From NCBI GenBank assembly GCA_028282325.1, contig JANQID010000063.1, forward strand, positions 1-37,456: DNA of 37,456 nucleotides, in the 5' to 3' direction. Both the position numbers and the translations under genes were made by a program. Under the pieces are notes generated by a model. That model worked only from the letters and a program-made list of their open reading frames with translations. It did not search any database and was not told the DNA's origin. Shown here piece after piece: positions 1 to 32,362 of this stretch; position 1 is the first letter of the stretch, and every line of letters begins with the position of its first letter. Source of the DNA: Chloroflexaceae bacterium (lineage in GTDB: Bacteria > Chloroflexota > Chloroflexia > Chloroflexales > Chloroflexaceae).

Positions 1-26
1 GGTTCCGAAGATCCGTAGGGGGTTCC

Positions 27-110
27 GGGAACGCGGGCGGCCCGCCCGCTCAGGCGGGATGCGGGCAAGCTGCCCGCGCTCCCAGGCCAGGCCAGGCCGC
101 AACTCCCTGC
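27..110. repeat. GC-rich palindromic intergenic sequence
   Basis: This stretch is made of short GC-rich inverted repeats. One is a 7-bp stem with a 3-base loop at 61-77 (GCGGGCA / TGCCCGC). A GCGGGC/GCCCGC pair lies near 33-50, and a tandem GGCCA repeat near 85-100. It resembles dispersed intergenic palindromes, but no other copy was seen in this window. No gene is visible in 1-158. Confidence 0.4.
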
Positions 111-140
111 GGACTTCCAAATGGCTGTACTAGTCACGCG

Positions 141-162
141 GTAGGAGCACGATAGCTCCTAC
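141..162. terminator. hairpin overlapping the stop codon of the minus-strand gene
   Basis: There is a perfect 8-bp stem (GTAGGAGC / GCTCCTAC) with a 6-base loop. It straddles the TAG stop (159-161) of the radical-SAM-like gene. On the minus strand no T-run follows. On the plus strand it is followed by CTTTT. It could be a weak bidirectional terminator, or only a stabilising 3' hairpin. Confidence 0.35.
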
Positions 163-1151
163 TTTTGGTGAAAAATCGAGATGCGCATATTAACCGGCTT
201 ACCGCAACTCTGGCAGCGATTGCCATCAAGACCGGCTAACACAGGGAAGCCTTGTTCGCGACGAATCAAGATCGTTTGGCAGACCGGGCAACGCGTATCT
301 TGCCTGACATCAGGGCCGTACACGAATTGCAAGCCGTTTTCATAGCCGACCCGCCGCGCGCGGATGACGGAAGAAGCTGTCGCCGCGCCGGCATCGCCGG
401 GTAGCACATGCCAGGGCGTTTGTTCGCCGAGGGTGTCGCGAATCCACTCGACCATTTCGAGCAATTCGTTGGCGTCATCATTAACGCCGTTATGGACACG
501 CGTTGTTACTTCGATATGGCAATGCCAGTGACTATGCGCATAGGTTGCGATCTCCAATATGCCGCGCCAATGAGGCGCAATGGCAAGCCGACTATACGAT
601 GAGTCGCTGAAGCCGCGCAGATCCAGATTGATGCCATCGAGATAAGGCCCGAAGCGATCAAGCGCCTCGGCGGTCATATAACCGGTGGTGACAAGCGCCG
701 TGTAACGGCTGGCGGCGCGGCTCAACTGCATCACGTCGAGAACGTATTCGTGCGATACGGCCGGTTCGCCGTAGGCCCAGATGACGCCGCGACACAATTG
801 TTCGAGGGCGACGTTGGCGATACGATCTGCATCGATGCGGCGCTGACTGGTCGGGTCATCGGGGATATGCGCGTACGCGCCGCGTTGCTGGTCGGCAGGG
901 AAGGCATAGCCCCAGCCGCCAATGGCCAGGGCGCGCGATTCGGGGAAGAAATGCCAGAGACGATGATCTTCGATTGGACTGATCGACGCGGCGCTGATTA
1001 ACCCGTGATTGAGCAATGCAATGTGGTTATCGGCGCCGCGTCGCACCAGGCACCGCCCGGTGACATCCGATTCGAGTTCACAATACCACTGGCACGCGTC
1101 GCAACGCAGGGCGCCGCTGGCTGTTTTGGTGAAAAGTTGCGCGCTTTGCAT
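159..1151 (-). CDS. AmmeMemoRadiSam-type radical SAM-like protein lacking the cluster cysteines
   Basis: This 330-residue protein has the architecture of the radical SAM member of the AmmeMemoRadiSam family, which is related to pyruvate formate-lyase activating enzymes. The N-terminal cysteine cluster is present (C17, C20, C24, C34), followed by the family-like stretch ending ISPIEDHRLWHFFPESRAL. A C-terminal zinc-ribbon-like pair of CxxC motifs closes the protein (CPVC near 290, CQSC near 314). Where family members carry the CxxxCxxC motif that ligands the 4Fe-4S cluster, residues 78-93 here hold no cysteine (GWGYAFPADQQRGAYA). The fold seems kept but classical SAM cleavage is unlikely, so the real role is unknown. 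The start is the ATG at 1151 with an AGGAG about 11 bases upstream. It is divergent from lepB. Family assignment is from memory of the motifs. Confidence 0.7.
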   Translation of the reverse strand: MQSAQLFTKTASGALRCDACQWYCELESDVTGRCLVRRGADNHIALLNHGLISAASISPIEDHRLWHFFPESRALAIGGWGYAFPADQQRGAYAHIPDDPTSQRRIDADRIANVALEQLCRGVIWAYGEPAVSHEYVLDVMQLSRAASRYTALVTTGYMTAEALDRFGPYLDGINLDLRGFSDSSYSRLAIAPHWRGILEIATYAHSHWHCHIEVTTRVHNGVNDDANELLEMVEWIRDTLGEQTPWHVLPGDAGAATASSVIRARRVGYENGLQFVYGPDVRQDTRCPVCQTILIRREQGFPVLAGLDGNRCQSCGKPVNMRISIFHQK

Positions 1152-1330: not shown

Positions 1331-2077
1331 ATGGATGATACACCTCTTCGCCATAGGCTAGGCCTCGATCGTACATCGGCTCCTGATCTGCTTCCTCCAG
1401 ATGACCAATGGGAATTAACGCCGGATGATCACTCTGGCAGCAATGCGAAAGTGCGGGTGCGCAGCGCGGTTAAAGAACTGCTCGAAACCGCTATTTTCAT
1501 TTTACTGGTCTTTTTTATTGTGCGCGGGATGGTCCAGAACTTCAAGATTGAAGGTTCGAGTATGGAACCGAACCTACACAGCGGTCAGTATATTCTGGTT
1601 AACAAACTGATCTATTTCCACTTTGATTTGAATGCGCCGATCCGTCTACTACCCGGCCAGGAGGACCTCGCACGCAAGATCGTCTATCCCTTTAGCCAGC
1701 CACAACGCGGCGATGTGGTGGTATTTGAATTTCCGGGCGATGTGAGTAAGGATTATATCAAACGTGTGATTGGCTTGCCAGGTGATAAGGTCGAGATCAG
1801 CGACGGACATGTGTATGTGAACGATCAGTTGCTCGACGAGGATTATCTGCAAGGCATACCCACCTATTGCAGCGCTGATAAAGCGTGCTCGCGCGGTCCG
1901 GTCGTCGTTCCTGACGGATCGGTCTTTGTGTTGGGCGACAATCGTACGAACAGCAGCGACTCGCGTGAGTGGGATGCATTGACGCTTGATAATGTGATCG
2001 GGCGCGCATGGGTGTTGTACTATCCGGTCAGCGATTGGGGGGTGATACACCATCCGTCGTACGCCGCCGACGAGTGA
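1331..2077 (+). CDS. lepB: signal peptidase I
   Basis: This is a type I signal peptidase that removes signal peptides from exported proteins at the outer face of the cytoplasmic membrane. The 248-residue protein has a hydrophilic N-terminal tail of about 50 residues, one membrane segment (about 53-68) and then the S26 peptidase domain. The catalytic serine is S77 in GSSMEP. The general-base lysine is K144 in YIKRVIGLPGD. The conserved GDNRTNSSDSREW box is present near 204-216. The start is the ATG at 1331, although only a weak Shine-Dalgarno (AAAG) precedes it. It leads a plus-strand run with the glycosyltransferase, tatA and obg. The linkage of lepB and tatA suits an export-related locus, but co-transcription is only inferred. 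Confidence 0.95.
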   Translation: MDDTPLRHRLGLDRTSAPDLLPPDDQWELTPDDHSGSNAKVRVRSAVKELLETAIFILLVFFIVRGMVQNFKIEGSSMEPNLHSGQYILVNKLIYFHFDLNAPIRLLPGQEDLARKIVYPFSQPQRGDVVVFEFPGDVSKDYIKRVIGLPGDKVEISDGHVYVNDQLLDEDYLQGIPTYCSADKACSRGPVVVPDGSVFVLGDNRTNSSDSREWDALTLDNVIGRAWVLYYPVSDWGVIHHPSYAADE

Positions 2078-9894: not shown

Positions 9895-10845
9895 ATGTTG
9901 TTTACGGAAGAACTCGCTCGAATTCGTGTGAAAGAAGCGATCCAAACAAGATTGCAGGAGCAATATATTCAGTACATTTTGCCGCCGAAGAAGAAATCTA
10001 AGTCAACCACTACTCTGCTAACCCTTTGTCTGGCGTTATTGCTGGCAATTAGCCTAGGGGCTTGCTCGGCAACAGACAGTACGCCCGTGTCAACTAGGCC
10101 TGAGCCGACAGAGATGCTAGAGACACCGCCTCAGTTTACCATTACGCTGGATGCCGAGGCGATGAGCATCTCCAAGGGCATTCCGGCAGGGCTGGTCGAG
10201 CTGACAATAGACAATATTGATACAGAATGGCATGCTGCAATTATCCGGCGGTTGAACGAAGGTGTATCGCTAGAGGAGTTTGGCACTGCTTTCCAACAAG
10301 AACCGAGAAGTACTTTTCCGATGACCTCATTTATCGGTGGTCCCGATGTGCCGGGCAAAACAACCATTCCCGGCTATTATACCCTTGAAGCAGGTACTTA
10401 CATAGTGGTGGATAACTGGGTTGAACCATGGCGCTTCGCGAGTTTCAGGGTGGAAGGTGAGATAGGGCAAGTACAGCCACCCAAAGCCGATGTTATGGTG
10501 CAGATGAATGAATATGCTCTTGAAATGCCAGAAACACTACCCAAAGGCAGACTACTATGGCAATTCACCAACCAAGGCGAATTCCTGCACAATGTAGGTA
10601 TCATTCAATTGGATGACGGCAAGAACATGGACGATGTTGCTGCCTGGATAAAAGAACAACAAGGTCCTGAGCCATTTAAGTATTTTACCATGTGGAACAT
10701 ATTATCCCCTGGCGTGACCAGTTGGGGCGAGATCGAGTTACAACCGGGCGAGTATCTGGCAGTTGATTTTATGCCCGATTTTGCGAGTGAGGGTGGGTGG
10801 AATATGGAGCAAGGAATGGTGTCGGCGTTCACTGTAACACCTTAA
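9895..10845 (+). CDS. lipoprotein with two cupredoxin-like repeats and an N-terminal extension
   Basis: This is a 316-residue putative secreted lipoprotein. A hydrophobic segment ends in a lipobox, LGAC, near residues 54-57. Unusually, about 40 hydrophilic residues precede it, beginning MLFTEELARIRVKEAIQ. The mature part holds two tandem beta-rich domains of about 110 residues. Each has a histidine in a similar place (EWHAAI, FLHNVG), a helix-like insert (SLEEF, NMDDV) and an LEAGTYIVVD / LQPGEYLAVD strand, suggesting internal duplication of a cupredoxin-like domain. Metal binding is not certain because a full Cys/Met ligand set is not obvious. The ATG at 9895 has a GAGG Shine-Dalgarno. A TTG at 9979 would give a classical signal peptide but has its AGGAG 18 bases away. 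Confidence 0.65.
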   Translation: MLFTEELARIRVKEAIQTRLQEQYIQYILPPKKKSKSTTTLLTLCLALLLAISLGACSATDSTPVSTRPEPTEMLETPPQFTITLDAEAMSISKGIPAGLVELTIDNIDTEWHAAIIRRLNEGVSLEEFGTAFQQEPRSTFPMTSFIGGPDVPGKTTIPGYYTLEAGTYIVVDNWVEPWRFASFRVEGEIGQVQPPKADVMVQMNEYALEMPETLPKGRLLWQFTNQGEFLHNVGIIQLDDGKNMDDVAAWIKEQQGPEPFKYFTMWNILSPGVTSWGEIELQPGEYLAVDFMPDFASEGGWNMEQGMVSAFTVTP

Positions 10846-29879: not shown

Positions 29880-30313
29880 AAACTACCTCCTAGTAGTTTT
29901 TTCAGCCGGCACGCCAAAGCGCCGGTCTAGGTGCGAAGACCTTACAGCTACCCGTCCAGACAATCATCAGCAAGGTGGTACGCTGTTTCGCTTGCTGCTC
30001 GGTATAGCAAATTGGGAATGATTCGTATGTGAATTAAAGAGGCATTCCCAATCCAGGGCGATTGTAGCATACTGCCGGATTACTGTCTATGAAGGTGATC
30101 GTGTCGGTATGCTATACTGGTTCTTACATATTCCGCTTCGTGCAATCCGCAAGATTCCAGAGTTTTTGCAGTCATCGACGCTGCGGCTGCGTCCTGTACT
30201 TTCCTATACTGCCGCGCCGTACAACGTTGACCTGCGATGACAGAGATTGCAGCATTATTCGAGTGTTGGACCTGCATAGTGCAAGGTCGTCGAATATCAC
30301 AAGGAGTTCGGCA
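29880..30313. promoter_or_regulatory. divergent intergenic region with inverted repeat
   Basis: This 434-base region lies between divergent glpX and the reductase gene. It contains a perfect 10-bp inverted repeat ATTGGGAATG (30011-30020) / CATTCCCAAT (30043-30052). A GCCGG / CCGGT hairpin lies in the glpX leader near 29905-29927, and a TATACT at 30113-30118 may serve the plus-strand gene. The coding frame that extends into it from the reductase gene is not accepted. No gene is supported. Confidence 0.4.
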
Positions 30314-32362
30314 ATGAAGCGCATTGTGAGTATCAGCCTGGGGTCGTCGCGACGCGATTATCATTTCACGACCACAGTGCTGGGTCAGCATATTGAGGTG
30401 CGACGCATTGGCGCCGACGGCGATGTTGAGCGCGCGGCGGCGCTGGTGCGGGCGAATGACAGCCAGGTTGATGCGATCGGCCTGGGCGGTCTGATTCCGG
30501 TCTTTCGTGTTGGCAAGGCGCGCTATCCTCATCGACAGGCGTTGCATATCGCTGCACAGGCGCAGCACACGCCGGTGGTTGACGGCAGCGTGTTGAAGGC
30601 GACGTTGGAGCGTTGGGCGATCAAGCGCGCCGTCGACCAGATACCCAATCTGTTTCGCTACCGGCGCATTCTGGTGACAAGCGGCATCGAGCGGTATCCG
30701 CTGGCGCAAGTGCTGACCCAGTATGAAGCGGATGTGCGCTTCGCCGACCCGGTGGTGCATACCGGGCTGTCGTTCTTGCCCATTCCGCGCACGATTGCAC
30801 AGCTCGAACTCTACGCCGCCACGACGCTGCCAATTATGGCGTTGTTGCCCTATCGCGTGCTGCATCCGGTGGCGCACGGCGATGATGATCGCATGGTGCG
30901 CGCTGAAAAGTTGTTCTCCTGGGCCGATGTGATCGCCGGCGATTTTGCCTACATCCGTCGTTTCGCCCCCGCCGACCTGAGCGGGCGCACAATCATTACT
31001 GACGACCCCGGCCCCGACGAGATCGAGGATCTGCGCCAGCGCGGCGTGACGACATTAGTGACGATGGCACCGCCGTTGAGCGATCAACGCCCCTTCATCG
31101 CCGCGGACGCCCTGGAGGCGATTGTCGCGGCGATTATTGAAAGTGGCGGTCAGCCCGGCGAGGCCGAGACGCTCGATTTTATCACAGCGGCGAAATGGGA
31201 ACCGACCGTCCAGCATCTGAATTCGCTGCCGAAGCCGAAATTTGCATTTGTCATTCACCCGCTTGCGCCGCACTATATTGCCAAAGAGCCGCGCTTCGCC
31301 TTCACGCGCTATCTGCCGACGCGCCTGGTCGAGTGGGTTGCCGCCCAGATGCCGCCGCTCTACCTGTCGCGCATTCGCGGCGTTCGTAGCGTACACACCG
31401 GCGAGGAGGCCGAGGGTTTGTTGTTTACCCTTGGCGCCACGCCGCGCGAGATGCTGCGCCGCAAACCCCAGTTCACTTATCGCCGCTTGATCCGTGCCGC
31501 CCGGATGGCCGAACGTATGGGGGCGCGGCTTATGGGCCTGGGGGCGTTCACCTCGGTTGTCGGCGATGCCGGCGTCACCGTGGCGATGAAGAGCGATATT
31601 GGCATTACCAGTGGCAACTCGCTGACGGTCGCCGCAACCCTGGAGGCGGCCAAGCAAGCGGTGATCCGGATGAAGGGCGGACGGCCTGATCACGTGCGTG
31701 CGGTGGTGATCGGCGCAACGGGCAGCATCGGCGCGGTGTGCGCACGCCTGCTGGCTCAGGCTGTGCGCGACGTGGTGCTGATTGCACCGCGCCCTGAACG
31801 CTTGCTGGCGCTCAAGCAGCAGATCGAGCAGGAAACGCCCGGCGCCCGCGTGATCGCCGCCACCAACGCCGCCGCCTACACGGGCGATGCCGATCTGATC
31901 GTGACGACGACCAGCGCGCTGACCGGCAAAGTGATCGACATCAACAAGCTCAAGCCCGGCGCAGTGGTGTGCGATGTGGCCCGTCCGCCCGATGTGCGCG
32001 CCGAAGATGCCGCTCGGCGCCCCGATGTGCTGGTGGTCGAGAGCGGCGAGATCAAACTGCCCGGCGACCCCGATTTCGGCTTCGACATTGATATGCCTCC
32101 CGGTACCGCCTACGCTTGCCTGTCCGAAACAGTTTTACTGGCGATGGAAGGCAAATTCAATGACTACACTCTGGGCCGCAACATCCAAATGGATCGCGTC
32201 AAAGAGATGTATCGCCTGATGAAAAAACATGGCCTGGAACTGGCCGGGCTGCGCAGCTTTGGCCGCTACATCACCGATGATGACATCATCGAAAAACGGC
32301 GGCTGGCCGACGAACGCCGCCGCAAACTGGGATTGCCCGAGGAATCGTTGACGACAAGCTAA
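30314..32362 (+). CDS. two-domain NAD(P)-dependent reductase related to acyl-ACP reductase
   Basis: This is a 682-residue protein. The N-terminal domain (1-290), MKRIVSISLGSSRRDYHF onward with GDVERAAALVRA and DAIGLGG, resembles proteins labelled quinate 5-dehydrogenase, whose true role I do not know. The C-terminal domain (310-680) resembles cyanobacterial long-chain acyl-ACP reductase. It has FAFVIHPL, MGARLMGLGAFTSVVGDAG, ITSGNSLTVA, nucleotide-binding GATGSIG (467-473), and C602 in TAYACLSE. From memory, C602 falls where the catalytic cysteine of acyl-ACP reductase lies, before LLAMEGKFNDYTLGRN. Aldehyde formation from acyl-thioesters is therefore possible but unproven. AAGGAG lies seven bases before the ATG at 30314; the longer frame from 30089 is rejected. 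An enoyl-CoA hydratase gene follows after 12 bases. Confidence 0.75.
   Translation: MKRIVSISLGSSRRDYHFTTTVLGQHIEVRRIGADGDVERAAALVRANDSQVDAIGLGGLIPVFRVGKARYPHRQALHIAAQAQHTPVVDGSVLKATLERWAIKRAVDQIPNLFRYRRILVTSGIERYPLAQVLTQYEADVRFADPVVHTGLSFLPIPRTIAQLELYAATTLPIMALLPYRVLHPVAHGDDDRMVRAEKLFSWADVIAGDFAYIRRFAPADLSGRTIITDDPGPDEIEDLRQRGVTTLVTMAPPLSDQRPFIAADALEAIVAAIIESGGQPGEAETLDFITAAKWEPTVQHLNSLPKPKFAFVIHPLAPHYIAKEPRFAFTRYLPTRLVEWVAAQMPPLYLSRIRGVRSVHTGEEAEGLLFTLGATPREMLRRKPQFTYRRLIRAARMAERMGARLMGLGAFTSVVGDAGVTVAMKSDIGITSGNSLTVAATLEAAKQAVIRMKGGRPDHVRAVVIGATGSIGAVCARLLAQAVRDVVLIAPRPERLLALKQQIEQETPGARVIAATNAAAYTGDADLIVTTTSALTGKVIDINKLKPGAVVCDVARPPDVRAEDAARRPDVLVVESGEIKLPGDPDFGFDIDMPPGTAYACLSETVLLAMEGKFNDYTLGRNIQMDRVKEMYRLMKKHGLELAGLRSFGRYITDDDIIEKRRLADERRRKLGLPEESLTTS

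Follow-up and report, generated by a model that had tools for sequence, protein, structure and literature searches.

The DNA stretch analyzed here, referred to as the window, comprises 37,456 nucleotides from a Chloroflexaceae bacterium and carries on its minus strand, at positions 159 to 1151 (stop codon included), an open reading frame of 330 amino acids with an ATG start and no internal stops. The encoded protein matched TIGR04337 (AmmeMemoSam_rS) at 167 bits (E value of 5e-49), below the curated cut-off of 220 bits, and PF04055 at 33.9 bits, above the cut-off of 29.5. The PF04055 match begins at profile position 22, i.e., downstream of the cluster motif, and the three-cysteine [4Fe-4S] site of the radical-SAM mechanism is absent from the protein. 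These matches, together with 65 distinct relatives, identify the gene product as an AmmeMemoRadiSam-type radical-SAM relative without the cluster cysteines. Divergent from it lies lepB (positions 1331 to 2077, plus strand), encoding signal peptidase I and recognized by its Pfam S26 match and by gene order; it is a conserved neighbor class-wide, and no partner role is claimed for it. As the contig starts 158 bp beyond the stop codon (window positions 1 to 158), the 3' neighbor of the gene cannot be seen in its own genome. Two further open reading frames of the window, at 9895 to 10845 (plus strand, 316 amino acids) and 30089 to 32362 (plus strand, 757 amino acids), had no Pfam matches at 1e-5. 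Families within class Chloroflexia are designated f1 to f8 below, with the window genome (G000) belonging to f1.

The original prediction described a radical-SAM family protein that has lost CxxxCxxC, and both the profile matches and the sequence of residues 78 to 93 (GGWGYAFPADQQRGAY), which contains no cysteine, bear this out, with the addition that the gene lies on the minus strand, which had been left unstated. The same region in cysteine-bearing relatives reads GTWGCNFHCQHCQNW. Alignment against GTWGCNFHCQHCQNWEIS-type relatives defined the segment standing in place of the radical-SAM cluster loop as residues 77 to 97 (IGGWGYAFPADQQRGAYAHIP; positions 861 to 923, minus strand), in which Y82, A86, and Q89 occupy the former cluster cysteine positions. 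In this alignment, CxxxCxxC follows the 'HF.PG...G' segment in 52 of 52 cysteine-bearing relatives; it is absent from all 65 distinct cysteine-less members. As C82, C86, and C89 are each 100% cysteine in the cysteine-bearing relatives and approximately 0% in the clade to which the window gene belongs, the absence of the motif is far beyond chance. The replacing loop is well conserved in much of Chloroflexales (GGWGYAxPxDQQRGxY), with weaker conservation at class level. Alignment with homologs had been put forward as a test of the prediction, and no three-cysteine motif was located elsewhere in the chain; CxxxCxxC, searched for along the whole length, was found neither in the window protein nor in any other cysteine-less member. 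Relocation of the cluster cysteines along the chain was rejected on this basis, and the N-terminal Cys4 is also present in the cysteine-bearing relatives.

To describe what has been retained, 36 positions that are near-invariant in the 52 cysteine-bearing relatives were scored, a position being regarded as kept if 90% or more of the cysteine-less clade preserve it. Of these, 24 are kept, including the eight cysteines that make up the two Cys4 modules, which the original prediction had reported as intact. The N-terminal module (C17, C20, C24, and C34, in a CxxCxxxCx9C arrangement; positions 1050 to 1103, minus strand) is 100% conserved in clade members and cysteine-bearing relatives alike, and the C-terminal zinc-ribbon-like module (C288/C291/C313/C316, CxxC...CxxC; positions 204 to 290, minus strand) is 100% conserved wherever the region is present. 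The other kept positions are G32, E61, H67, P70, G81, P130, G157, E214, N224, D225, P246, H248, G273, Y278, T286, and R298. The remaining 12 are lost (C82, C86, C89, Q90, N91, K63, P64, K179, T257, and N281) or, with a milder change, relaxed (D177 and A265). Position 179 is lysine in 52 of 52 cysteine-bearing rows versus 0 of 48 cysteine-less rows; R179 (positions 615 to 617, minus strand) replaces this invariant lysine in the window protein and, in the alignment to 3c8f, is placed with K131 of PflA, while D177 aligns with D129. K131 and D129 of PflA are presumably SAM-site residues. A remnant of a 'GGE'-type motif persists as E129-P130 (positions 762 to 767, minus strand), E/D-P being present in nearly all members. 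The barrel-strand residues H212 and E214 (positions 510 to 518, minus strand) are conserved not only in the cysteine-less clade but also in the cysteine-bearing relatives closest to it, with E214 at 100% in the clade. New clade-wide constants have also arisen, including R104 and R121, which are 100% conserved in the cysteine-less clade and are not so in the cysteine-bearing relatives. The pattern of lost and kept residues therefore indicates that the cluster and SAM side has gone from a protein that otherwise keeps its fold, both metal modules, and some of its barrel pocket; H67, P130, E214, N224, and H248 are among the pocket residues retained.

A structural model was generated with AF2 from 15 sequences, with a mean pLDDT of 68.8. 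The barrel (approximately residues 140 to 320) is fair to good, but confidence is poor for the motif loop and the first third of the chain (block means mostly 29 to 64), leaving the content of the cluster site unreadable from the model. PflA was the best structural match (Foldseek E value of 4.8e-8; VIA Z score of 17.1, 2.9 Å, 202 residues), and a sequence search of solved structures returned only PflA-type barrels and weaker matches to RlmN and MJ0257. By homology (the PF04055 match of 33.9 bits) and by barrel fold (the PflA Z score), the window protein is a member of the radical-SAM superfamily. It shares with PflA (3c8f and 3cb8) the barrel fold and a sequence match across profile positions 119 to 248, but it lacks the cluster motif, has the SAM-site lysine replaced, and adds the N-terminal Cys4 and the C-terminal ribbon. 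Its likeness to the TIGR04337 enzymes lies in full-length homology, both Cys4 modules, and a tree position next to the CQW-type branch. However, it differs from them in its score (167 versus 220 bits) and in that CxxxCxxC, KKP, QN(W), K179, T257, and N281 are gone.

The survey for relatives covered class Chloroflexia and a 400-genome sample of the phylum Chloroflexota; as some genomes are incomplete, absences are approximate. At an E value of 1e-40 or better against the window protein, the gene was found in 67 of 158 Chloroflexia genomes (f1, 37; f2, 3; f3, 9; f4, 11; f5, 5; f6, 1; and f8, 1), with Chloroflexus islandicus, Oscillochloris, and Candidatus Viridilinea among the named records. CxxxCxxC is missing from all 65 distinct sequences whose motif region could be read, 64 having no cysteine there and one (L104) having a single cysteine. 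Outside the class, the phylum sample gave many matches, and the cysteines were present in 40 of 40 loci read. In trees built with the motif columns excluded, the window protein falls within a clade made up solely of cysteine-less proteins (SH-aLRT of 99 in a quick tree of 100 rows; support of 100/100 in a careful tree of 77 rows), the sister group, from other classes of Chloroflexota, being AmmeMemoRadiSam proteins of the cysteine-bearing "CQW" type (union support of 98/84). Judged from these trees, the motif was lost once, in an ancestor within class Chloroflexia. Close pairs of cysteine-less relatives have dN/dS values of about 0.015 to 0.16; the gene is under purifying selection, and the loss is neither decay nor unique to the window genome. 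The possibilities left by the original prediction, a conserved cysteine-free form or a decaying gene of a single genome, are thereby settled in favor of the former, with the 65 distinct Chloroflexia sequences forming one clade. As the motif has been lost and the full length nonetheless kept by selection, a changed function, as the prediction proposed, is the natural reading. At locus L023 (G005:C54), an in-frame TAG lies near the C-terminal ribbon and is either a sequencing error or the mark of a lone decaying copy.

The original prediction also raised the existence of a cysteine-bearing paralog, and one was found in the same genome on contig C34, where a single intact TIGR04337 protein (615 bits) with GCNLGCQFCQNW is followed by Memo. 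The canonical AmmeMemoRadiSam set of this genome is spread over two contigs, with the radical-SAM and Memo genes on C34 (L001, 1453 to 3419) and AMMECR1 on C33 (L117, 628 to 1128); both AMMECR1 and Memo are unlinked to the cysteine-less gene. A tree joining the cysteine-less clade and the C34-type paralogs as one clade was rejected (p-AU = 0.00026); the C34 paralog is from a different subfamily, and local duplication of this paralog followed by cysteine loss is rejected by the same result. Across the class, an intact TIGR04337 protein above the cut-off was identified in 20 of 158 genomes, 18 of which belong to the 67 with the cysteine-less gene.

Gene order around the cysteine-less gene was compared across families. 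Most Chloroflexales, as well as part of f5 and of f8, have the gene divergent from lepB, so that this arrangement is old. In the nearest cysteine-bearing relatives, the radical-SAM gene mostly stands in a tight operon, with a gene for AMMECR1, Memo, or a fusion of the two next in line, often overlapping or less than 60 bp away. Similarly, in f3, the very next gene after the cysteine-less one is AMMECR1, on the same strand, in nine of nine genomes (with gaps of, e.g., 23 and 57 bp), and in f6 the cysteine-less gene is followed after 50 bp by Memo (Pfam match of 199 bits). This adjacency in f3 and f6 recalls the TIGR04337 system; unlike in that system, genomes with the cysteine-less gene are usually without AMMECR1 or Memo. 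AMMECR1 was found in 11 of 158 class genomes, confined to f3, f6, and the window genome, and Memo likewise in 11 of 158; in the genus Chloroflexus (g9), these searches turned up neither gene. Gene order suggests that the ancestral partner was on the AMMECR1/Memo side of the system. Since AMMECR1 and Memo are absent from most f1 and several f4 genomes, the cysteine-less protein has there survived the loss of the partners that it presumably had at first.

Downstream of the cysteine-less gene, f5, f6, and f8 have genes for PP2C and for a Ser/Thr kinase carrying a beta-propeller. Beyond these, vWA is present in f5 and f8, and f5 also has FHA, the domains having been checked in L104 and L099 only. 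Runs of this kind headed by the cysteine-less gene extend over 7495 to 14316 in L099 (vWA and FHA), 5547 to 10670 in L104 (Memo), and 1194 to 7858 in L106 (vWA), and the gaps behind the cysteine-less gene are 50 to 720 bp. The kinase and PP2C genes are suggestive of phospho-signaling. No constant partner was seen across the families, and most of f1 has no partner, which weighs against the adaptor reading proposed below. In parts of f2, f3, and f4, the next genes encode lipoate ligase and glycine cleavage proteins; a functional link to these was considered and rejected as ordinary gene order. A riboswitch intervenes in f3, and gaps of 352 to 413 bp separate the genes in two f4 cases, which argues against an operon with the glycine cleavage genes. 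The riboswitch, of the glycine type, comes shortly after the cysteine-less gene and AMMECR1 in L084 (10535 to 10714) and L085 (10436 to 10527) and precedes a lipoate-ligase-type gene that leads the glycine cleavage genes.

AMMECR1 and Memo are conserved in archaea, bacteria, and humans, and to our knowledge no function is known for the AmmeMemoRadiSam set. From the residue pattern and gene order we infer a loss of activity, a nonradical binding role, and the identity of the partner: the reading that we prefer, at about even chances, is that the cysteine-less protein may be a cluster-less pseudo-radical-SAM that serves as a binding or adaptor protein, ancestrally for AMMECR1/Memo. A PflA-like barrel framed by two Cys4 modules, probably holding zinc, would have lost binding of the SAM-cleaving [4Fe-4S] cluster once, and the 5'-deoxyadenosyl radical would most likely no longer be made. 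The barrel pocket and metal modules may then bind, without radical chemistry, whatever substrate, ligand, or partner the ancestor bound, originally AMMECR1 and/or Memo. That most f1 and several f4 genomes keep the gene after the loss of AMMECR1 and Memo indicates that the protein has a role of its own. More tentatively, and with some doubt, the conversion may have been a single, class-wide one of an AmmeMemoRadiSam radical-SAM enzyme that kept its substrate-side pocket and, in one family, its operon with AMMECR1, and that works with neither an Fe-S cluster nor a SAM radical. If true, the AMMECR1/Memo step could be carried out, regulated, or sensed with no radical chemistry involved, and the cysteine-less form would be a minimal version of an unexplained, widely conserved system. 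The clade thus offers a natural experiment in which radical chemistry was dropped and the protein kept, in one family beside AMMECR1, separating a binding from a catalytic role. It also provides a clear, conserved pseudo-radical-SAM that domain-based annotation would call a radical SAM enzyme.

Two possibilities in particular could speak against a binding or adaptor role, namely, a new catalytic activity of polar barrel residues and a cluster held in the N-terminal Cys4. The former is the main rival, and we regard it as rather unlikely: the barrel would act on the ancestral substrate, or on one related to it, by nonradical catalysis, with E129, E135, H212, E214, and H248 as retained acid/base residues alongside the newly conserved Y82, D87, R90, Y93, R104, and R121. 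The conservation of polar residues within the barrel, the invariance in the clade of R104 and R121, and the maintenance of the replacing loop in much of Chloroflexales are consistent with such an enzyme, but loop conservation weakens at class level and no enzymatic neighbor is shared across all families. We know of no radical-SAM relative that catalyzes a nonradical reaction in this way. An enzyme that still uses iron and sulfur, with the SAM-binding cluster supplied by the N-terminal Cys4 (CxxCxWxCx9C) or by other cysteines, would account for the invariance of the four N-terminal cysteines. However, the same four are invariant in the relatives that bear CxxxCxxC and must have another job there, which makes a relocated cluster less likely than a nonradical enzyme; in addition, the lysine at the PflA K131 position is lost in 48 of 48 sequences and the residues after the third cysteine have changed, so that we consider this explanation improbable.

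The original prediction raised, as one possible form of the new function, a partnership with an active paralog, and this part did not hold in general. The window genome, with its intact paralog and Memo on C34 and AMMECR1 on C33, would fit a protein that pairs with, or regulates, an active AmmeMemoRadiSam paralog of its own cell. Yet the paralog belongs to a separate subfamily and is unlinked to the cysteine-less gene, and 49 of the 67 genomes with this gene have no intact family member above the cut-off, so that such a partnership is not the general function; it may exist in single genomes, and as an explanation of the clade it is very improbable. A decaying pseudogene or an assembly or sequencing artifact finds isolated cases in its favor, such as the stop near the C-terminal part in G005. 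For the clade it is refuted, with hardly any probability left to it, by frames that are intact across dozens of genera, by the loss being a single, shared one, and by dN/dS far below 1; the breadth of the distribution likewise rejects a pseudogene.

The cysteine-less clade is undescribed in the open-access papers that were searched, and earlier mention in subscription papers is possible. A precedent for a nonenzymatic role of a binding protein derived from a radical-SAM relative, and for that role only, is the heme chaperone HemW, which is a radical-SAM protein with a carrier role that has retained its [4Fe-4S] cluster and a weak SAM-cleaving activity (PMC10320005, PMC10964404). Unlike HemW, which belongs to a different subfamily, the present protein is without the cluster motif, and the likeness drawn here is one of role. 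A Memo-AMMECR1-related radical-SAM domain has been placed in vWA-MoxR (FtsH) ternary conflict systems (eLife 2020, PMC7159879), and the f5 and f8 cysteine-less genes resemble these in lying upstream of kinase, PP2C, vWA, and FHA genes. Compared with those systems, no MoxR, FtsH, or JAB component was noticed in f5 and f8, the gaps there are 170 to 720 bp, and the neighborhood is known here from gene order and not as one operon. In the f6 genome G087, the cysteine-less member adjoins Memo, and several cysteine-bearing relatives are present in the same genome (L104, 5439 to 6572; L105, 6793 to 7947).
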